Assembly: GCA_944323995.1 (NCBI GenBank)
Contig: CALUUN010000034.1
Span: forward strand, 62,001 to 126,000
DNA length: 64,000 nucleotides
Reading direction: 5' to 3'
DNA from: Candidatus Gastranaerophilales bacterium
Lineage (GTDB): Bacteria > Cyanobacteriota > Vampirovibrionia > Gastranaerophilales > Gastranaerophilaceae
Shown: in pieces, positions 3,068-14,521 of the stretch
Position numbering within the stretch: position 1 is the stretch's first letter
How the letters are laid out: the number at the start of each line of letters is the position of its first letter
Position numbers and translations under genes: made by a program
The notes under the pieces: generated by a model
Told to the model about the DNA's origin: nothing
The model's input: the letters and a program-made list of their open reading frames with translations, nothing else
The model's database searches: none

Positions 3068-4638
3068 TTACCTAACTATTTCATACTCAAATACTTCAAC
3101 ACCCGGTTTTTTATTACAAATGATTGTCCTATTATTGCAGACTTGTATATTGTAATATTTGGGCTCTAAGATAATAGTACCGTCTTTTTTGCATAATCCA
3201 CAAGAATTTTCAATATTTTTATCTATACAAACAGTATAAAGATTGTCGTTTTTTAAAAAGATTTTATCGTATATAGCAGGTATTATTATATTTCCGTCTA
3301 TACTTTTTACTCCTATTTTTTCATTTTGTTTAAACAAGTATCTTTTTCTTTTAAAATCAACTTCTTCTATATAATTCATGCTAGCAATATCATTTGCTTC
3401 GCAATTTGCAAGAATAGTTCCGTTTTTATTAATAAGTCCGAATATTTTTTTGCCGTTTCTGTCAATCTTTGTTTCATAAGGATATTTAAATGTATTTATC
3501 CTTGTATAATTGGATTTAAATATTTCTTTGCCTGTTTTATCTATTATTTTTTCAACTGTATAACCTAATTTTTTATCAAAAATTTCTACTAGTATGTTTC
3601 CGTCTTTAAGAAAGGTTACATCATCAAACATTGGTTTAAACAAAATTTTATTTTGGTTTAAATCATAAATTCCTAAAGGAATATCTTCCATCGTGTTTTT
3701 TTCACGATACGTAAATAATCCATTATAATAATCATAGTATATATCTTCAAAAACCGGTTCTGTTGCAAATCTCCCATTACGGTCAATAACAGCCCATTTA
3801 CCATTTCTCCAGCCACCGACATGGACTGCAAAATAGTCTTTACATTCACTCCAATCGTCATTTACAAACCTCTTAATTTCATCATATATGCAGGGAATAA
3901 TTTCGTTGCCCTGTTTGTCAATAACGCCCCACAACTCTTCTTCCGTCCATATTTTCCTTGATTATATTCATTATCCCATTTTTTATCAATGGTCCATTTT
4001 CCTTTTGCAACTATTGCTCTATCACCTATAAAGTCAAATGCATAAATATATTGCGGTTTTATTACCTCTTTACCATTTTTATCAACATAACCCCAATATC
4101 CCGCAAACTCAGGATATTCTGAATGATAAGCTAAGTATTCCCAGCTGATATTTAACAAAGAAACTCTAGCCAACCCTTCTGAAAAATTTTCAAGTCTTTG
4201 GTATTGATTTTTCAAATATAATTCATTTCCGTTTTTATCAACATAAAGCCATTCTTTCCCATTGTAGACCGGGGCATAACCATTATTGAAGTCGTTTGCA
4301 TATTTATATTTTGGAGGAATTATAACTTCAATATTTTTATTCAAAAAACCATACCCTTTTCCGTTTATCCCTATACAACACATTTCATTTTCCCAATCAC
4401 CCATGTAATCAAACTCTAAATCAGTCAATCTTTTACCTTCATACGATACAAAAGTTGATTTTCCTTCGCAATTAAAAGATTCACCATCTAATAAAACTTT
4501 TAACACATTGATATCAGGCTTTTCGTAAACAGATTTAACATTCCAACACCATTTTTTTGTTACTTTTATATGCTCGTCGTTGAATATAACTTCATTGCAA
4601 AAGGTTGGGTTTGCTGAATATTTATATTTATCATTCAT
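3068..4638 (-). pseudogene. WG-repeat protein, split by a single frameshift
   Basis: Two overlapping frames together encode one WG-repeat protein of about 520 residues. The 5' part (4638 to about 3955) carries repeats such as GYGFLNKNIEVIIPPKY and GYWGYVDKNGKEVIKPQY. The 3' part (about 3955 to 3068) continues with LWGVIDKQGNEIIPCIYDEI and GKWAVIDRNGRF. At 3952-3955 there is a run of four T (A on the coding strand); adding one base joins NQGK to IWTEEELWGVIDKQG without loss. Either the gene is a recent pseudogene or a homopolymer sequencing error is present. The start at 4638 is preferred because GAGGTGAT precedes it. WG repeats are beta-rich and common in surface, effector and immunity contexts. 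Confidence 0.7.
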
Positions 4639-4724: not shown

Positions 4725-5699
4725 ATGTCGGATAAGCCAAGATACTCAAGAATATCAGATATTTTAGACCTTGCGATTTTTATGTCATCAAAAATTCAAG
4801 GGGTCACAATAACAGAAATCGCGCAAAGATACAATGTTTCCCGAAGAACTGCTGAGCGTATGCGCGACAGTTTGACCTGTATTTTCCCGTCTGTTGATGA
4901 AATCGAAACAAACGACAATCAAAAACACTGGGGATTTATTAATTATTCCATCTCAAACCTGATTTCATTTACACCCAAAGAGATTGCAAATATTGAGCAG
5001 CTTCAAAGACGCACTACAAATAAAGAGATGAAAGAAGAACTCGGTAAAACCGTTGAAAAACTTAAATCCCTGAACAGAAAACACGCACTGCCTTTAGAAA
5101 ACAATATTGAACTTTATATGCAGACAGAAGGCTACGCCGTTCGCCAGATGCCGCAATACAAAATCAGCCTTGAAATATTAGAGGTTATTCGTGAAGCAGT
5201 TCAGCATTCAAAAATGGTTACAGGCATTTATCACAACAAAGAACGATTGATTGAGCCTTTAGGAATGATTTACGGGGAAAAAATTTATCTTGTTGCAAAA
5301 GAAAAAGCAAAGGGTGACGGGATTTATAATTATCTTTTGCACAAATTTGAGAATTTGAAACTAACAGACAAAACCTTTGATAAAGGTGATTTTGACTTGC
5401 AGGAATATACAAATTTATCCTTTGGTGTTTATCACAGTGACATTCTGGAGGTAGAACTTTTGTTTTCGCAAGATTTGGCACAGGAAGCAAGCCAATTCAA
5501 TTTTCATCCGACACAATCAGGGAAATGGAACGACGATGGAACTTATACGGTTTATTTTAAAGCAAGCGGCAGCAGGGAAATTATATGGCACGTGTTTCGC
5601 TGGGGCGCCGGATGTAAGATTGTTGCACCGGAATCCCTTAAAGAAGAATATAAAAAATATTTGAAAGAAAACTTAGAAAATTATTTTAAATTTTTATGA
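4725..5699 (+). CDS. WYL-domain transcriptional regulator
   Basis: 324 residues. The N-terminal winged helix (about 10-60; SRISDILDLAIF...ITEIAQRYNVSRRTAERMRD) is a DeoR/HTH_11-type DNA-binding domain. A middle WYL region (about 150-225; VTGIYHNKERLIEPLGMIYGEKIYLVAKEK) and a C-terminal WCX-type segment (GSREIIWHVFRWGAGCKIVAPESLKEEY, 285-312) complete the family architecture. WYL proteins are known to bind ligands including nucleic acids and are frequently found beside CRISPR-Cas loci. This one directly precedes the CRISPR array. SD AGGAG; an operator-like palindrome lies at its promoter. Control of the locus or of defence is inference. Confidence 0.88.
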   Translation: MSDKPRYSRISDILDLAIFMSSKIQGVTITEIAQRYNVSRRTAERMRDSLTCIFPSVDEIETNDNQKHWGFINYSISNLISFTPKEIANIEQLQRRTTNKEMKEELGKTVEKLKSLNRKHALPLENNIELYMQTEGYAVRQMPQYKISLEILEVIREAVQHSKMVTGIYHNKERLIEPLGMIYGEKIYLVAKEKAKGDGIYNYLLHKFENLKLTDKTFDKGDFDLQEYTNLSFGVYHSDILEVELLFSQDLAQEASQFNFHPTQSGKWNDDGTYTVYFKASGSREIIWHVFRWGAGCKIVAPESLKEEYKKYLKENLENYFKFL

Positions 5700-5800: not shown

Positions 5801-8606
5801 GTTATAGTTTCCTTTCGAAAGTATTTATTGTATAATTTTTATTGCAGTATTGATAATATATCTATCGTTATAGTTTCCTTTCGAAAGTATTTATTGTATA
5901 ATTTGGCTTGGCGTCATTAGCCCTGCTTTTGAGTTATAGTTTCCTTTCGAAAGTATTTATTGTATAATGCAATAACCCCAGACTTCATCATCAGACTCGT
6001 TATAGTTTCCTTTCGAAAGTATTTATTGTATAATATAATACGGCTTTTCTCTGTTGCGGTAATTGTTATAGTTTCCTTTCGAAAGTATTTATTGTATAAT
6101 GCATTGTAGATTTCATTCATTTTGTCGAAGTTATAGTTTCCTTTCGAAAGTATTTATTGTATAATATGATGGAATATTCACCGCTCAAAGGTATAGTTAT
6201 AGTTTCCTTTCGAAAGTATTTATTGTATAATTCAAGACCGGCCTCATACCAAAGTGGATAGTTATAGTTTCCTTTCGAAAGTATTTATTGTATAATTGAT
6301 TATATATATATTCTACCATGCGGGTGTTATAGTTTCCTTTCGAAAGTATTTATTGTATAATCCTTAAACGTTGCAAGGATTGAGCATTAGCGTTATAGTT
6401 TCCTTTCGAAAGTATTTATTGTATAATATAGTTAGAATTAAATGTAATCGACATTTCGTTATAGTTTCCTTTCGAAAGTATTTATTGTATAATCAGGCAA
6501 CTGGTCTGCTGCAACGAATACAGGTTATAGTTTCCTTTCGAAAGTATTTATTGTATAATTTAGACATCTTCAAAAATAATCTTTCGTAAGTTATAGTTTC
6601 CTTTCGAAAGTATTTATTGTATAATAATACGAAAGCTCACAACGCTGTTCGTCGCGTTATAGTTTCCTTTCGAAAGTATTTATTGTATAATGAAACCGTG
6701 ACGAGATGAAGCACCGTAAATGTTATAGTTTCCTTTCGAAAGTATTTATTGTATAATTACAGTCAGGGTTAGCAACCTTGCCACCGTGTTATAGTTTCCT
6801 TTCGAAAGTATTTATTGTATAATCATTCTTTAATCATTAAATCAACTTTTTCTGTTATAGTTTCCTTTCGAAAGTATTTATTGTATAATTAATCCTTCTG
6901 TGTGTCGCTCCTGTATCTTGTTATAGTTTCCTTTCGAAAGTATTTATTGTATAATTACAGATGTCGAACCGGAGGCATAAATGCAGTTATAGTTTCCTTT
7001 CGAAAGTATTTATTGTATAATTATTTTGGAAGAACAATTAACACCGTAATTGTTATAGTTTCCTTTCGAAAGTATTTATTGTATAATCAATGCCCGAACA
7101 ACCCGATGAATGCTTGAGTTATAGTTTCCTTTCGAAAGTATTTATTGTATAATAAAGTCAGATGACCAGAAATACATTCGCTAGTTATAGTTTCCTTTCG
7201 AAAGTATTTATTGTATAATTCCGGATCAAGTCCATGTTCTATGCATCTTGTTATAGTTTCCTTTCGAAAGTATTTATTGTATAATATCATATCGTCTGTG
7301 TGCATTGAGTAGATTGTTATAGTTTCCTTTCGAAAGTATTTATTGTATAATATCATATCGTCTGTGTGCATTGAGTAGATTGTTATAGTTTCCTTTCGAA
7401 AGTATTTATTGTATAATTTCTTTTGATTCTTCTTCCCAAACTTCTCTAGTTATAGTTTCCTTTCGAAAGTATTTATTGTATAATTTTAAATTTTTAAATT
7501 CCTTTCATTCAAGGTTATAGTTTCCTTTCGAAAGTATTTATTGTATAATCAATACCATCAGCTTTATAACCTTCTTGTTGTTATAGTTTCCTTTCGAAAG
7601 TATTTATTGTATAATGGTAAAACTGGCTCTTATGGCTTCTGTTAAGTTATAGTTTCCTTTCGAAAGTATTTATTGTATAATCTATTAGCCGTTTGAGTTT
7701 TCCACGTTACTTGTTATAGTTTCCTTTCGAAAGTATTTATTGTATAATTCATTAAACGGTGGATTGCACCAAGAAAAAGTTATAGTTTCCTTTCGAAAGT
7801 ATTTATTGTATAATCCGTCACCCTGTTTATACATAACCTCAACAGTTATAGTTTCCTTTCGAAAGTATTTATTGTATAATTGTAAACGGTAATGTACTTG
7901 ATGATTCCATGTTATAGTTTCCTTTCGAAAGTATTTATTGTATAATTCAGATACTGTACAGCCGGAGCAAATCCAGTTATAGTTTCCTTTCGAAAGTATT
8001 TATTGTATAATCACAGACGCTATTATTAAGCTGGGTGCTGAGTTATAGTTTCCTTTCGAAAGTATTTATTGTATAATTGTTTCTGCCGGCGTTACTATTG
8101 CAGTTGGGTTATAGTTTCCTTTCGAAAGTATTTATTGTATAATATTGAAAACTAAATTTAAATAAGATTGGAGGTTATAGTTTCCTTTCGAAAGTATTTA
8201 TTGTATAATCAAACAAGCCTTGATTATCGTATACAACAGGGTTATAGTTTCCTTTCGAAAGTATTTATTGTATAATTTTTAAATATTTTAAACCAGGAAC
8301 TTTGCTGTTATAGTTTCCTTTCGAAAGTATTTATTGTATAATACAAACCAGAAATGATAATCGCAGTATAGAGTTATAGTTTCCTTTCGAAAGTATTTAT
8401 TGTATAATATCTTCAACATCATCAACACACATAGCATTGTTATAGTTTCCTTTCGAAAGTATTTATTGTATAATCGCCTGAAAGTATTACAGCAACTATC
8501 AATAGTTATAGTTTCCTTTCGAAAGTATTTATTGTATAATTTTCATCTTTAAAAAGTTGATTATCAAGCGGTTATAGTTTCCTTTCGAAAGTATTTATTG
8601 TATAAT
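5801..8606 (+). CRISPR. Type II-C CRISPR array, 43 repeats, 42 spacers
   Basis: A 36-nt repeat starting GTTATAGTTTCC and ending ATTGTATAAT is repeated without visible variation from 5801-5836 to 8571-8606. Spacers are mostly 30 nt (range 29-31). The repeat contains the palindrome CTTTCGAAAG. Orientation is set by the GTTxTAG start typical of type II repeats and by the tracrRNA anti-repeat at 12999-13030. Spacers 23 (7286-7315) and 24 (7352-7381) are identical. Spacer 22 (7220-7249) equals 11338-11367 inside cas9. Each repeat ends in TATAAT, so internal promoters as in Neisseria type II-C arrays are plausible. Short open frames across the array are artefacts of the repeat. Confidence 0.99.
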
Positions 8607-8663
8607 ACCAAGCTCTAAAATCTAGGATAGACAAGGGGTTTGGTATTTTTATTATAAAAAATT

Positions 8664-8996
8664 TTAGAACAAAAGAAGTTGTTCGCAGCCAATAATTTCT
8701 TCTTTTTCCGGTTTCCCAACAAGAAAAAGCATGCCTCCGTATTGTTTGTCTGTTACCTGAAGAATTCGGACGTTGCCTTCAGGCGGAATAATTTGTTTAA
8801 TTCGACGAATTTCTCTATCTACAATATCTTGCCCGCGGCATGTCCTGCAATAAACAGAAAATTGAAGCATAATAAAACCTTCATTAAGTAATTGTTTTCT
8901 GAAACGGGTTGCTATTTTTCGTTGTTTCTTTTGAGTTACAGGGAGATCAAAGAATACAAATAATCTCATAAAAATATCATTACCTTTTACGCTCAT
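8664..8996 (-). CDS. cas2: CRISPR-associated endonuclease Cas2
   Basis: 110 residues. Cas2 forms the adaptation complex with Cas1 that inserts new spacers. The fold-defining start MRLFVFFDLPV (residues 10-20) and EGFIMLQFSVYCRTC, followed by the VRILQVTDKQYGGMLFLVG strand, match type II Cas2. The ATG at 8996 overlaps the cas1 stop by 4 nt (ATGA), implying translational coupling. An internal ATG at residue 10 with AAAGGT upstream is an alternative start. It ends about 60 nt from the last CRISPR repeat and is convergent with the array. Confidence 0.95.
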   Translation of the reverse strand: MSVKGNDIFMRLFVFFDLPVTQKKQRKIATRFRKQLLNEGFIMLQFSVYCRTCRGQDIVDREIRRIKQIIPPEGNVRILQVTDKQYGGMLFLVGKPEKEEIIGCEQLLLF

Positions 8997-9874
8997 TTTG
9001 CCTCAATAAATTGTGGAAGTTCCAATATATTGCTGTCATTTTGTTCAAGACTTTTTGCAAAAGTTTGACAGACCCTTTCGCAAGCATTTTGAACTGTAAT
9101 TTGTTCACCTTTATACCTGCACTGCATATTTAATATATTCAAAAGGCAGGCTTTATCTTGTTTGGATAATTCAGGTTCATCTAAAGTTTGCATATTTGAT
9201 ACAACTAAATCAACAAAAGGTCTAAATGGTTCTATTAAATCTTCAATCAGATTGAAAGAGTTAAGTTCATTACAATGATGAACTCCCAGACATGGAACAA
9301 GACCGCTTGATGACACGAATTTTGCCAGTGTACCTCTGATTATTGCATACCCGTAATCCAGCGCTGCATTATGTTTTGTTTCTGCATGCCGTTTAAAATT
9401 TTCAAACAGCAGCCCCCAGTACTGTTTTGAAACGTATGCTTCTATATTGGTTGTATCACCAGATTTAACTTTTTCACAAAAATAATCTAAAATATCATTA
9501 TCAAATAGTATTTTTAGGACATTGGACTGATTTTTAATTTTTTGTTTTATAATTTTTTGCCATAATCGTTTTTTCAAAGGTTCAGACATATTTATATGAT
9601 TAAGAGCAATTTTTGTATTTCTACTATGCTGGTAAAATGGTGTCAAAATCACATTCGGTTGATGTTTTTTATCACAGGAAAACAATGTGATATTATATTC
9701 GCCGCATACTGATAAAAGATAATTTGTAACTTCTATCTGCATATTTTCAAGTATTATTGTAGAAATATCTTCAAGCGGGATTTTTACCTCGCTATCTTGT
9801 GATGAATACATAAGTTGAAAGTTCTTCACACTAAGTTTACAAGGATTACTAAACAAAAGAGTTTTATATCCCAT
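8993..9874 (-). CDS. cas1: CRISPR-associated integrase Cas1
   Basis: 293 residues, normal for type II Cas1. The metal-binding catalytic triad can be placed at E145 (NIEAYVSKQYW), H200 (GVHHCNELNSFNL) and E215 (DLIEPFRPFVD), with the spacing seen in the family. It integrates prespacers into the array together with Cas2. It lies 3' of cas9 with an 11-nt overlap and overlaps cas2 by 4 nt, so cas9-cas1-cas2 read as one operon. No cas4 or csn2 is present, which assigns the locus to subtype II-C. Confidence 0.97.
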   Translation of the reverse strand: MGYKTLLFSNPCKLSVKNFQLMYSSQDSEVKIPLEDISTIILENMQIEVTNYLLSVCGEYNITLFSCDKKHQPNVILTPFYQHSRNTKIALNHINMSEPLKKRLWQKIIKQKIKNQSNVLKILFDNDILDYFCEKVKSGDTTNIEAYVSKQYWGLLFENFKRHAETKHNAALDYGYAIIRGTLAKFVSSSGLVPCLGVHHCNELNSFNLIEDLIEPFRPFVDLVVSNMQTLDEPELSKQDKACLLNILNMQCRYKGEQITVQNACERVCQTFAKSLEQNDSNILELPQFIEAK

Positions 9875-12800
9875 GTTTTTCCTTTCTTTTCATTTTTATT
9901 GGTAATCGTTTTTCATGTTTTACCTCATGATAATCACCAAGTATTCCGACTTGATATTTTTTTATGTAAGCTGCAGTTTTTGTAGAAAAACGAACTCCTT
10001 TTTGAACTCTATCAGGAGCATCTAAAACAATTCTACCGTTATCTATATCACAACCTTTATAATATCCTAAAAATTCATCTTCAGGTTTTCCTGTTGAGTT
10101 TATTGCTATCAAAGTATCCGGAAAAAGACTAAAAAGAAAAGTGTAATCTTCTGTCATTTCAATCCAACCATTTTTTCCTTTATTTATAGCCTTATTTGGT
10201 AATTCTTTGCCGAAATCAGATACATAAATCGGTACCAAGAAAAATTCGTTTTTGCCTTTTTTATTCTTTTTGGTAAAGACATCCAATCTGGGCATTGACG
10301 CGTTTTTAGCAAAGCCTCCTCTTACCAGAATACCGGAAGTACTAGAATCTTTAATTTTTATTGATTTTATTTCATGCGGATGTTGTCCTTTTGCTATTTT
10401 TTCTTCGGATAAAGGCATGTATACAGGTTCTGCAAATGCTTTTTTAGGATCATTATTAAATTTTTCTAATCTTTCTTTTAAAAGATTGTAGATTTTATAA
10501 TTTCGTTCTTTGTCAAACATTTGTTCCAATTTTTTTAGATCAATCGTTTCAATAGGTGTTTTAACCGTAGTAAAGCCTTTATCAAGATGTTTTGCGCTTC
10601 TTATTGTTGCATCATGCAATTCTCCTTTAACGGACTTTCTAACGGCTCTTGATACAAAAACATGTTTTAATGACTGTTCAAGATCTTCCGAAAAAGTTTC
10701 CCATGGTTTTTTAAAGTGAGGTTTTCTGTCTTTTGTATAATCATAATTTTCAAGTCTGGCAGAAACAGTAGACAAATATTGAACCATGCCTTGTGTTGAG
10801 CAAGCAATAACAGCTGCATCAAGAGCATGATGTTTGTCGCTTTCGTCTCTATTTTTGACAAGTCCCCATTGCGTTCGTAAAAATGCCGTTAGAGCACCAT
10901 TCCTTGTTTCGACTTTGAGATTATTATCAAAATCAAGATTTTCTTTTATATAATCTTTGACAAATTTAGCAATGTATCTTGTATCGTTTAAATTTCTTGA
11001 TTTAAATCCTTCTTGTTCGTATTTTTTCTTAGTTAGACGGTTAACTTTTGCTTGTTTCAGGTGGTAAGATTTGACGCGTTGTACAAATTCATACCATTTA
11101 TTTTCACCAATATATTCATACGGTATTTTATTTCCTTTTTGTCTATTCTCATCCGTCAGACAGAGTACCTTGTTATTTAAACTATCATCAAAACTCCTTG
11201 AATAAGGAATAATATGATCTATATCTACATAGTCAGATTCAATAAGTCTTTTGGGATCAATATATTTGCCTGAATAAACACAAAAACCTCCTTGTTCTTC
11301 CCAAAGACGGAATTTGAGAAGGTTGCTTTTAGGATTATCCGGATCAAGTCCATGTTCTATGCATCTTTGTCTTGCTTTTTCCTTTTCTGCCTGGAATTCA
11401 TTTTGAGCATTCTTAATCTTTCGTCTTTCAGTTACAGATTTTGATAAATCTCTGGACATTTCAATAATTACGGCATCAAAATGACCATATTTTTTGATCA
11501 AAGAATTTACAATTTTTCTTGTTTGAGATATGGCCCTATTTACAACAGGATTGGTTGTAAGTTCGTTTTGATTCAAAACCGGAAGTAAAGATTGTTTTTC
11601 ATTTTTGTTATCTTCAATTTTGTATCCGGCTTTTTCACATGCTTCGCTATATTTCATTCCCTGCATCATAAAAGGAATTAGTTTTTTCATTGCTTTAATT
11701 GAAAGGTGGACAGTTTTACTCATTGAAAGCTCTTTAATGATATCTATTAGTGCATTTTCAAATCCTTTTTCTTTTAAGGCTTTTTCTATGCTTTCATCAC
11801 TTTTTTCGCAAGTTAAAACTAAAGCAATATCATTAAAAAAATTTTCATCATTTTTTATTGCGTCAAAATATAATTTTCCGAGTCTTGAATCTGCTATTGC
11901 TTTTTTAATTGCATGATAATTCTTAAGTTCAATTAAAGTTGTATTTTCGATATCTGCAGGTTGTCCTTTTGAATCAACTTTTCCATAATTTAAGGTTAAA
12001 AATTTAGTAGTATCATCCAGACACAATTCTTTTCGCAATTGTTTATATGTAACTTTAGTAAGTTTATGAGCAAGATTTATAGCATCCTCAATTTCTTCCG
12101 CGGCAAAAAATCTTGTATCGCCCAAATCGTTAATTAAGCGCAGATTAACAAGTTTATTTAAAGCAATAAAAATTTCCGATGTATAAGCGCATTTTGGGGC
12201 TCTCATTTCATCAGATTCAAAAATACAAGGAGTATCTATAGGAATTGATTTTAAAGGCCTTTGGTAAAAAGCTATTTCTTTATAACCATTTTCTATTTCT
12301 TCACTTGCAATATCAGAGCCTAAATCCCGCTGTACTTTAAAAATAGTTTCTATTTCTTGTTTTAACAAATCTCTTGAGATAGATTTATTATATTTTCCTG
12401 CTTTATTTCTTTTGGCTTCACCATTGTTATATTTAAGTGCAAACATTTCACCGATGGTTTTGTATTTACCATGTTCAAAATTTTCTGTTGTTTCTTTTAT
12501 TGATTTTAATAAATCTCCTTCTGTTTTCACTTCTTCAGATTTCCTTATAGATTTAAATCCTCTACGTTTAGCGATATGTATTAAAATTCTATAAAATTCA
12601 ACACTGCTTAATTTTCTTTCCAGAGCTTCTTTACGTAAATTCCACACGTCTGTACTCATTTCAGGTGAATTGTAAACAGTTTCGATTTCTGATTGAGTAA
12701 TAAATTTTTTTTCCAATAAAAATTTCCTAATATTATATAAGCGACTTGCACGTCTTGACAACCTGCGTCGTGAACTTCTAGCTTCTCTTCTGGGCAATGC

Positions 12801-12950
12801 CAATGATGACCCGTCTTTTGGATGTTCAGCCGCAGTAAAAATTCTGACACCTAAATCTATAATTTCTCCGGTATGCTCTTTTTCATCAAGTTCTATAATT
12901 GAGTGCCCGACTGATGCAATACCTATATCAAGACCCAATACTTTAATCAT
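9864..12950 (-). CDS. cas9: Type II-C CRISPR effector nuclease Cas9
   Basis: 1028 residues from ATG at 12950, which has AAAGGAGT just upstream; a longer frame beginning TTG at 12971 is not preferred. RuvC residues are D8 (GLDIGIASVGHS), E497 (IIEMSRDL), H708 and D711 (HHALDA). The HNH site is D576/D578-H579 (DIDHIIPYS) with N602 (DENRQKG). An arginine-rich bridge helix (RREARSSRRRLSRRASRL) follows RuvC-I. The length is typical of compact II-C enzymes. All catalytic residues are intact, so the enzyme should be active. The array's own spacer 22 matches bases 11338-11367 of this gene, encoding about residues 528-538 between RuvC-II and HNH. Confidence 0.98.
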   Translation of the reverse strand: MIKVLGLDIGIASVGHSIIELDEKEHTGEIIDLGVRIFTAAEHPKDGSSLALPRREARSSRRRLSRRASRLYNIRKFLLEKKFITQSEIETVYNSPEMSTDVWNLRKEALERKLSSVEFYRILIHIAKRRGFKSIRKSEEVKTEGDLLKSIKETTENFEHGKYKTIGEMFALKYNNGEAKRNKAGKYNKSISRDLLKQEIETIFKVQRDLGSDIASEEIENGYKEIAFYQRPLKSIPIDTPCIFESDEMRAPKCAYTSEIFIALNKLVNLRLINDLGDTRFFAAEEIEDAINLAHKLTKVTYKQLRKELCLDDTTKFLTLNYGKVDSKGQPADIENTTLIELKNYHAIKKAIADSRLGKLYFDAIKNDENFFNDIALVLTCEKSDESIEKALKEKGFENALIDIIKELSMSKTVHLSIKAMKKLIPFMMQGMKYSEACEKAGYKIEDNKNEKQSLLPVLNQNELTTNPVVNRAISQTRKIVNSLIKKYGHFDAVIIEMSRDLSKSVTERRKIKNAQNEFQAEKEKARQRCIEHGLDPDNPKSNLLKFRLWEEQGGFCVYSGKYIDPKRLIESDYVDIDHIIPYSRSFDDSLNNKVLCLTDENRQKGNKIPYEYIGENKWYEFVQRVKSYHLKQAKVNRLTKKKYEQEGFKSRNLNDTRYIAKFVKDYIKENLDFDNNLKVETRNGALTAFLRTQWGLVKNRDESDKHHALDAAVIACSTQGMVQYLSTVSARLENYDYTKDRKPHFKKPWETFSEDLEQSLKHVFVSRAVRKSVKGELHDATIRSAKHLDKGFTTVKTPIETIDLKKLEQMFDKERNYKIYNLLKERLEKFNNDPKKAFAEPVYMPLSEEKIAKGQHPHEIKSIKIKDSSTSGILVRGGFAKNASMPRLDVFTKKNKKGKNEFFLVPIYVSDFGKELPNKAINKGKNGWIEMTEDYTFLFSLFPDTLIAINSTGKPEDEFLGYYKGCDIDNGRIVLDAPDRVQKGVRFSTKTAAYIKKYQVGILGDYHEVKHEKRLPIKMKRKEKHGI

Positions 12951-12964
12951 TTTATACTCCTTTA

Positions 12965-12992
12965 TTGACAAATAAATTTATTATTTTATAAT
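12965..12992 (+). promoter_or_regulatory. tracrRNA promoter
   Basis: TTGACA at 12965-12970 and TATAAT at 12987-12992, 16 nt apart, both perfect sigma-70 hexamers. They predict a transcription start at about 12999, exactly where the anti-repeat begins. The promoter lies in the short cas9 leader and points away from cas9. Confidence 0.85.
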
Positions 12993-12998
12993 AATACC

Positions 12999-13082
12999 AT
13001 ACAATAAATACTTTCGAAACGTTACTATAATAAGAAAGTTTCGTGAAGTTCTGTCCGGTAATTTTACCGGACATCTTCTTTT
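12999..13082 (+). ncRNA. tracrRNA
   Basis: 12999-13019 is perfectly complementary over 21 nt to the 3' half of the CRISPR repeat, and 13024-13030 (ACTATAA) pairs with its 5' end, leaving a small internal bulge (CGTT) as in known repeat:anti-repeat duplexes. A linker with a short stem follows, then a strong hairpin (TGTCCGGTAA/TTACCGGACA, 52-61 with 64-73 of the 13000s) flanked by GAAG/CTTC and ending in a T run at 13079-13082, an intrinsic terminator. The resulting RNA is about 84 nt. It is divergent from cas9, a usual II-C arrangement. RNase III processing with crRNA is the known mechanism of the family. Confidence 0.93.
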
Positions 13083-13103: not shown

Positions 13104-13691
13104 TTAAGAAATATAGCAATCATCATCCTCTACTAAATCATTTGAAAGATATTTTTCAAACAAATCAACCAAGCCTAATACTTTGCCTTCGGTAGACATT
13201 TTGACCATTTCAAACGCACGTTTGTTAAAACAATTTGCTTCATCCATGCCATTGAGAACTGTAACACGTTTAGAATTGTTTTGTTCAAGGCTTGTTATAA
13301 GATTTGTATGAAATACTGCGCATAAATTGTAATCTTTTATTTTAGTTAAATCAAAATCATACAGTCCAAAGTTTTCTGCACGGGCACGAATTGCATTAAA
13401 TCCGAACTCAAGACCGTCCATATTCCAGTGAACAAAAATCGGATTGTTCAAATTTTTATAAAAATCCACAAAATCTTTAAGCAATTGTTGTTCGCTTTCC
13501 ATAAGTGATTTCCCTTGTACAACATAATTATGCAGAGCAAAAGTGTGCAGCTCTTTTGTTGCATAATTAACCAATGCAATAGAACATATTGTAGGTGCAT
13601 AAGCACCTCCGTCATAAAATCCGTCGCAAGAATAATGAATTGCGTAAATGTCTTGTTCTTTGTCTTTGATTAGGAATTTTATTCCGTCCAT
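13104..13691 (-). CDS. Hypothetical protein, possibly RNase H-like fold
   Basis: 195 residues with SD GGAG. The N-terminus (IYAIHYSCDGFYDGGAYAPTICSIALVNYATKELHTF) looks like the first strands of an RNase H-like fold. FVDFYKNLNNPIFVHWNM followed by GFNAIRARAENFG recalls motif II of DEDD 3'-5' exonucleases. A full set of acidic catalytic residues cannot be assigned with confidence. It ends 22 nt from the tracrRNA terminator, so it borders the CRISPR locus, but nothing else ties it to CRISPR function. Confidence 0.55.
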   Translation of the reverse strand: MDGIKFLIKDKEQDIYAIHYSCDGFYDGGAYAPTICSIALVNYATKELHTFALHNYVVQGKSLMESEQQLLKDFVDFYKNLNNPIFVHWNMDGLEFGFNAIRARAENFGLYDFDLTKIKDYNLCAVFHTNLITSLEQNNSKRVTVLNGMDEANCFNKRAFEMVKMSTEGKVLGLVDLFEKYLSNDLVEDDDCYIS

Positions 13692-14149: not shown

Positions 14150-14521
14150 TTATCTTCTTTTAAACCGCGGATGTTTATTTTTAAACCTGAAATTTTTCGG
14201 TTGTTTTTTAGTTTTTTTAATTACGTGTTTTTTATTTTTTTCGTACTTTTTAACATTTTTGTGATGTTTTTTCCGGATATTTTGTTTGTTTTTACTCCAT
14301 TTAAACCAGCTGTGATTGGAATTTTTCTTTTTAATTTTATGTTTTTTAGGCGGGTGTGATTTTTTTACTGCCGATTTATTTTTACCGCGGTGCCAAAAAT
14401 TAAACCATCCGTGTACAGCCGGTCTTTTATGATGTTGGCGCGGAGCTGCCGTACAAACGCTTAAGCCCTGCCCTAATAACATTATTCCTGCGATTAAAAG
14501 TGATAAAATTTTTCTCTTCAT
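14150..14521 (-). CDS. Secreted, very basic lysine/histidine-rich protein
   Basis: 123 residues. A clear signal peptide (MKRKILSLLIAGIMLLGQGLSVCTAA, cleavage near residue 26) precedes a low-complexity tail of Lys, His, Arg and Trp (HGWFNFWHRGKNKSAVKK, KKHHKNVKKYEKNKK). No conserved catalytic domain is visible. Such tails bind polyanions in general, so interaction with envelope polymers or nucleic acid is conceivable. It lies 31 nt downstream of the carbonic anhydrase gene on the same strand. Confidence 0.6.
   Translation of the reverse strand: MKRKILSLLIAGIMLLGQGLSVCTAAPRQHHKRPAVHGWFNFWHRGKNKSAVKKSHPPKKHKIKKKNSNHSWFKWSKNKQNIRKKHHKNVKKYEKNKKHVIKKTKKQPKNFRFKNKHPRFKRR

Follow-up and report, generated by a model that had tools for sequence, protein, structure and literature searches.

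Spacer 22 in the CRISPR array of a Candidatus Gastranaerophilales bacterium is an exact copy of a segment of the cas9 gene in the same locus, and the sequence 3' of that segment lacks the PAM that we derived for this Cas9 lineage. The spacer was very probably mis-acquired, either from the strain's own cas9 or from a conspecific's, and has persisted because it does not act against DNA.

RESULTS

The spacer resides in a type II-C locus

The window (the whole 64,000-nucleotide stretch of DNA that we analyzed) comes from a 1.75 Mb draft genome that is 99.9% complete and carries a single copy of cas9. The locus comprises the following features, with positions given in window coordinates.

5801-8606, + strand: CRISPR array of 43 identical 36-nt repeats (GTTATAGTTTCCTTTCGAAAGTATTTATTGTATAAT) and 42 spacers of 29-31 nt
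8607-8652, + strand: conserved terminator-like hairpin and T run, at the probable leader (newest) end of the array
8664-8996, minus strand: cas2 (TIGR01573)
8993-9874, minus strand: cas1, type II (TIGR03639)
9864-12950, minus strand: cas9, type II-C, 1028 aa from the ATG (TIGR01865, E = 3e-228), with recognised HNH and RuvC domains
12965-12992, + strand: tracrRNA promoter TTGACA-16-TATAAT, read directly from the sequence
12999-13082, + strand: tracrRNA, with the anti-repeat at 12999-13031 and a terminator hairpin at 13052-13082

The three cas genes gave full-length matches to type II family models. The operon consists of cas9, cas1, and cas2 only, with neither csn2 nor cas4 found in it, and the ORFs beside it (13104-13691 and 14150-14521) matched no Cas family. 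The tracrRNA lies just upstream of cas9 on the + strand and pairs with the repeat. Judged by its HNH- and RuvC-containing Cas9, its type II Cas1, its Cas2, and this pairing, the locus is an intact type II-C system. Each repeat ends in a -10-like element, TTGTATAAT; some type II-C systems have crRNA promoters within their repeats. At the trailer end, the array adjoins a WYL-domain regulator gene (4725-5699), and two relatives, G014 and G007, have conserved sequence there.

Spacer 22 is identical to a segment of cas9

An earlier note on this DNA had reported that a spacer in the middle of the 42-spacer array perfectly matched the cas9 gene of its own locus, with TGTCTTGC following the match. This was borne out in full: all 30 nucleotides of spacer 22, the 22nd of the 42 spacers, are identical to the cas9 segment, and the 30-mer occurs exactly twice in the window (at 7220 and 11338), on the + strand in both cases.

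7220-7249, + strand: spacer 22, identical to the cas9 segment
11338-11367, + strand: protospacer in cas9 (non-target strand; codons about 529-538)
11368-11375, + strand: 3' flank of the protospacer at the PAM position, TGTCTTGC, with T and not C at position 5 (non-PAM)
11330-11337, minus strand: opposite flank of the protospacer, reading TAATCCTA, with C at position 5, C at 6, and T at 7

When the spacers were searched against the whole genome, the cas9 site of spacer 22 scored E = 1e-7, far beyond chance, and no other spacer of the array had a significant second site (next-best E, 0.09). One further repeat-like genomic site in this search was the tracrRNA anti-repeat. With a full-length match to its own genome outside the array, spacer 22 is a self-targeting spacer. 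The protospacer encodes R-C-I-E-H-G-L-D-P, around residues 529-538 of Cas9, and the guide is complementary (antisense) to the cas9 coding strand and mRNA at nt 1584-1613. Spacers 23 (7286-7315) and 24 (7352-7381), which adjoin spacer 22, are identical to each other.

A piece of cas9 could have been joined into the array during assembly, given that the genome is a draft in 35 contigs and is related to metagenome-assembled genomes. We consider such an artefact exceedingly improbable. The insert amounts to exactly one spacer (30 nt), set between two perfect repeats, and it shares a contig with cas9. The cas9 stretch, with an identical flank, was found independently in two other MAGs (L018 and L015).

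Guides are read on the + strand

The tracrRNA forms a duplex of -34.5 kcal/mol with the + strand repeat, compared to -15.8 kcal/mol for the opposite strand. The hairpin and T run at the array end are conserved among relatives, degenerate repeats are found at the opposite end in G007, and the conserved flank of the mapped protospacers (see below) is on the 3' side. On the basis of the anti-repeat pairing, the array-end terminator, and the protospacer flanks, we conclude that the guides are read on the + strand and that the PAM must therefore be 3' of the protospacer. Judging from where the degenerate repeats lie, new spacers most likely enter near cas2. A leader at the 3' end would make 20 spacers younger than spacer 22, which has therefore probably stayed in the array as a neutral passenger. 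The earlier statement that spacer 22 was kept through many later acquisitions thus holds, at about 20 younger spacers, insofar as the leader end has been correctly placed.

The PAM of this Cas9 lineage

To define the PAM, we took the spacers of this array together with those carried by E04 (L018), G014, and G007, whose Cas9 proteins are 99.8%, 95%, and 88% identical to the one studied here, and compared them with 383 genomes of the family and 383 of the order. Spacers of more distant relatives, mapped within the family, extended the set to 17 protospacers and to Cas9s down to about 77% identity. The mapped protospacers, which lie in phage genes and in the chromosomes of other species, gave the PAM N4-C-(C/A)-R, a motif resting on 10 to 17 sequence-derived protospacers. 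Among the ten that belong to Cas9s at least 88% identical (flanks AAAACCAC, TCCGCCAA, TTATCCAG, TATACCAA, TACCCCGC, TTTACCAC, ATAACCGC, TCAACAGT, AATATCAA, and ACAACAGA), nine have C at position 5, and all ten have C or A at position 6 and A or G at position 7. Overall, C is present at position 5 in 15 of the 17. The other two, spacer 26 of this array and spacer 13 of G204, indicate that rare PAM-less spacers against foreign targets also exist. The genes matched include those for a terminase small subunit, a head-tail adaptor, a CI-like repressor, and a DNA methyltransferase. Spacers of this array in the set include the following.

6101-6129, + strand: spacer 5, perfect match at G105:C5, flank ATAACCGC
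7418-7448, + strand: spacer 25, perfect match to the rsfS gene of a sister genus, with C at PAM position 5

Searches of phage and plasmid collections for protospacers produced no convincing match, and exact scans of IMG/VR found none for spacers 22, 5, 13, 15, 18, 25, and 31, some of which were scanned with degenerate positions. The closest solved homologue of this Cas9 is GeoCas9, the type II-C enzyme of Geobacillus stearothermophilus (PDB 8jtj, 8uza), whose PAM is N4CRAA (PMC5681539). Our sequence-derived motif resembles it in the C at position 5 and differs in preferring C or A and then A or G at positions 6 and 7, in a host from a gut lineage.

The self site in cas9 lacks the PAM

The flank TGTCTTGC reads N4-TTG, with T at positions 5 and 6 and G at 7, where lethal self-targeting would call for N4-C-(C/A)-R beside the target. 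Its PAM score of -3.8 bits is reached or exceeded by 41% of all cas9 sites. The repeat that follows every spacer (GTTATAG) likewise has T at position 5; the cas9 site therefore shares the feature that protects the array itself, and with T at this position no DNA cutting is expected at cas9, although weak cutting at a non-canonical PAM may occur. The earlier note had argued that such a guide should be lethal or autoregulatory unless its flank was not a valid PAM, and had proposed determining the PAM by aligning the other spacers. Now that this has been done, TGTCTTGC does not fit: the proviso applies, the lethal or autoregulatory reading is weakened, and the alternative offered in the same note, tolerance, is supported by a clear non-PAM.

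A perfect self-match in a genome whose CRISPR system is intact serves as a sign of anti-CRISPRs (PMC6739104), and active self-targeting could be held back here by such an inhibitor or because Cas9 has lost its function. We regard this as very unlikely. The full-length family matches of cas9, cas1, and cas2 speak against lost function, and neither form of restraint is needed because the PAM is absent at the self site.

On the other side of the protospacer, TAATCCTA might have served as a PAM if spacer 22 went into the array the other way round. Its PAM score is reached by about 9% of random sites, so the case is statistically weak, and we offer inverted insertion as a suggestion only. Candidates for such an inverted reading are spacer 22 itself, spacer 13 of G204, and spacer 9 of G014, the last with a one-base slip.

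Other spacers also match chromosomal DNA

A second self-spacer was found in G014, in which spacer 9 (L015) perfectly matches the strain's own oadA-like gene (L118, reverse strand, position 3455 of the reverse complement). The flank of this site, CTAAAGAT, has no C at position 5 and is a non-PAM. These two chromosomal self-spacers, against cas9 and oadA, are those found in the lineage, and both are PAM-less.

Spacer 25 matches rsfS at 31 of 31 positions in two g27 genomes, including G158. The strain's own rsfS is 54% identical to that of the sister genus and contains no match to spacer 25. The neighboring spacer 26 (7485-7513) matches, at 28 of 29 positions, an intergenic site of G158 upstream of a prepilin-like gene. 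By their matches, these two adjacent spacers seem to record the chromosome of another bacterium and not a phage. Since the array records chromosomal DNA of another genus, spacer 22 may derive from the strain's own chromosome or from conspecific DNA. Farther along the array, spacers 27 (7550-7579), 28 (7616-7645), and 31 (7815-7844) all map to the same region of one phage-like element, G142:C2, with 6, 4, and 1 mismatches, respectively.

Spacer 22 is absent from the arrays of relatives

Beside the array, strain E04 is 99.5% identical to the window across 13.6 kb; on the other side, the identity is 95.8% across 452 bases. Its array (L018 13652-16384) has 41 spacers, none of which is common to the 42 in the array studied here. 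Spacer 22 was likewise absent from the arrays of G014 and G007 and from all other arrays found in the family. A guide dedicated to autoregulation would be conserved among relatives; missing from a 99.5%-identical strain, spacer 22 is not a conserved regulator. Within the E04 array, spacers 11 and 24 are identical but not adjacent, and its spacer 27 and spacer 13 of our array, with 7 mismatches between them, resemble homologous sites in targets that have diverged.

The earlier suggestion that the spacer controls Cas9 levels found no positive evidence. In addition to its absence from relatives, the site lies in the middle of the ORF, and DNA binding needs a PAM. Regulation could instead act on RNA: guide-loaded Cas9 would cut or block cas9 mRNA without a PAM, lowering expression and leaving the chromosome unharmed. 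The guide is indeed antisense to this mRNA, and PAM-independent RNA targeting by type II-A and II-C Cas9 has been published (PMC5796797). However, antisense orientation is not special to spacer 22: of the 16 foreign protospacers that lie in ORFs, about 10 share it. As one of 41 distinct guides, spacer 22 would also contribute a small share of the pool. With its absence from relatives weighing against it as well, we judge RNA-level autoregulation quite unlikely.

Could the spacer instead guard against incoming DNA that carries this cas9, whether on a rival element, as the earlier note had proposed, or in chromosomal DNA of a sister strain? The array does record the chromosome of another genus, through the matches of spacers 25 and 26 to G158, and the cas9 of G014 contains an identical protospacer. 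Yet the non-PAM flank is the same in all three genomes with the exact protospacer, so a rival with the same cas9 sequence would be equally PAM-less, and divergent cas9 homologues show 3-10 mismatches to spacer 22. No Cas9 more than 38% identical was found in phage, viral contig, or plasmid records, which weakens the rival-element idea, nor was a copy of the protospacer found in IMG/VR. We consider this immunity quite unlikely. The distribution of spacer and target among relatives and mobile elements thus does not support a regulatory or rival-directed role.

The earlier note had also asked whether related strains combine the spacer with a divergent cas9; no other array found carried the spacer. 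A diverged cas9 with a better flank was likewise rejected as the source of spacer 22, as all the homologues found show either the mismatches noted above or the same flank. In G202 and G265, spacer 22 has a partial match that lies in recA and was judged to be due to chance.

DISCUSSION

We favor mis-acquisition followed by tolerance. The crRNA, read along the + strand, would need N4-C-(C/A)-R 3' of its protospacer, and at cas9 it would meet N4-TTG, with the critical position 5 occupied by T as in the array repeats. Cas9 loaded with the spacer 22 guide should neither bind nor cut the cas9 gene, a behavior in the cell that we infer from the flank, and the spacer would persist as a passenger across about 20 later acquisitions. 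How it was acquired is conjectural; one possibility is that the prespacer was chosen with a PAM and then inserted inverted.

Guide-based autoregulation of cas genes occurs naturally through tracr-L and creR. Another such case is scaRNA (PMC6990116). Like these, spacer 22 specifies a guide RNA from the locus that is able to pair with a cas gene. The known regulators, however, work by partial matching or at promoter sites, and none is encoded as an ordinary spacer, whereas spacer 22 is a full-length ordinary spacer with a PAM-less, mid-ORF target and is not conserved.

Closer parallels lie among tolerated self-spacers, for which a missing or mutated PAM has been documented (PMC6990116). In the type I-F system of Pectobacterium atrosepticum described there, as here, spacers match the bacterium's own chromosome perfectly or nearly so, without a functional PAM and alongside intact cas genes; here, the target is the effector gene itself, cas9, and the system is type II-C, from the Gastranaerophilales. 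Campylobacter jejuni has a similarly minimal type II-C system of cas9, cas1, and cas2 that takes up host chromosomal spacers (PMC4283603). In that species, the uptake was observed with phage carrier-state cultures and connected with a Cas4-like phage protein, whereas our spacers come from an analysis of sequence. Slipped type II-A spacers of the NAGG kind (PMC10415147), whose PAM is displaced, are also rare, and their protospacers have no canonical PAM at the expected position. Spacer 22 would need a one-base 5' slip, moving the flank C from position 4 to 5, and that C would then be followed by TT; CC appears only when the site is read inverted. PAM-less self-spacers and host-derived type II-C spacers are therefore already known, and what is particular here is that the target is cas9 itself. 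Text searches of the literature yielded no usable earlier report of a spacer directed at the cas9 of its own locus, which does not prove absence.

If RNA silencing were to prove true, the strain would trim its own Cas9 through an ordinary spacer, a self-limiting loop without DNA damage. On the reading that we favor, the locus offers a clean example from nature in which an array holds a spacer perfectly matching its own effector gene with no apparent harm, explained by a PAM derived from the same lineage. The analysis also yields a testable PAM for the Cas9 lineage of gut Gastranaerophilales and indicates that arrays of this group sample chromosomal DNA, both their own (cas9 and oadA) and that of a sister genus (rsfS).
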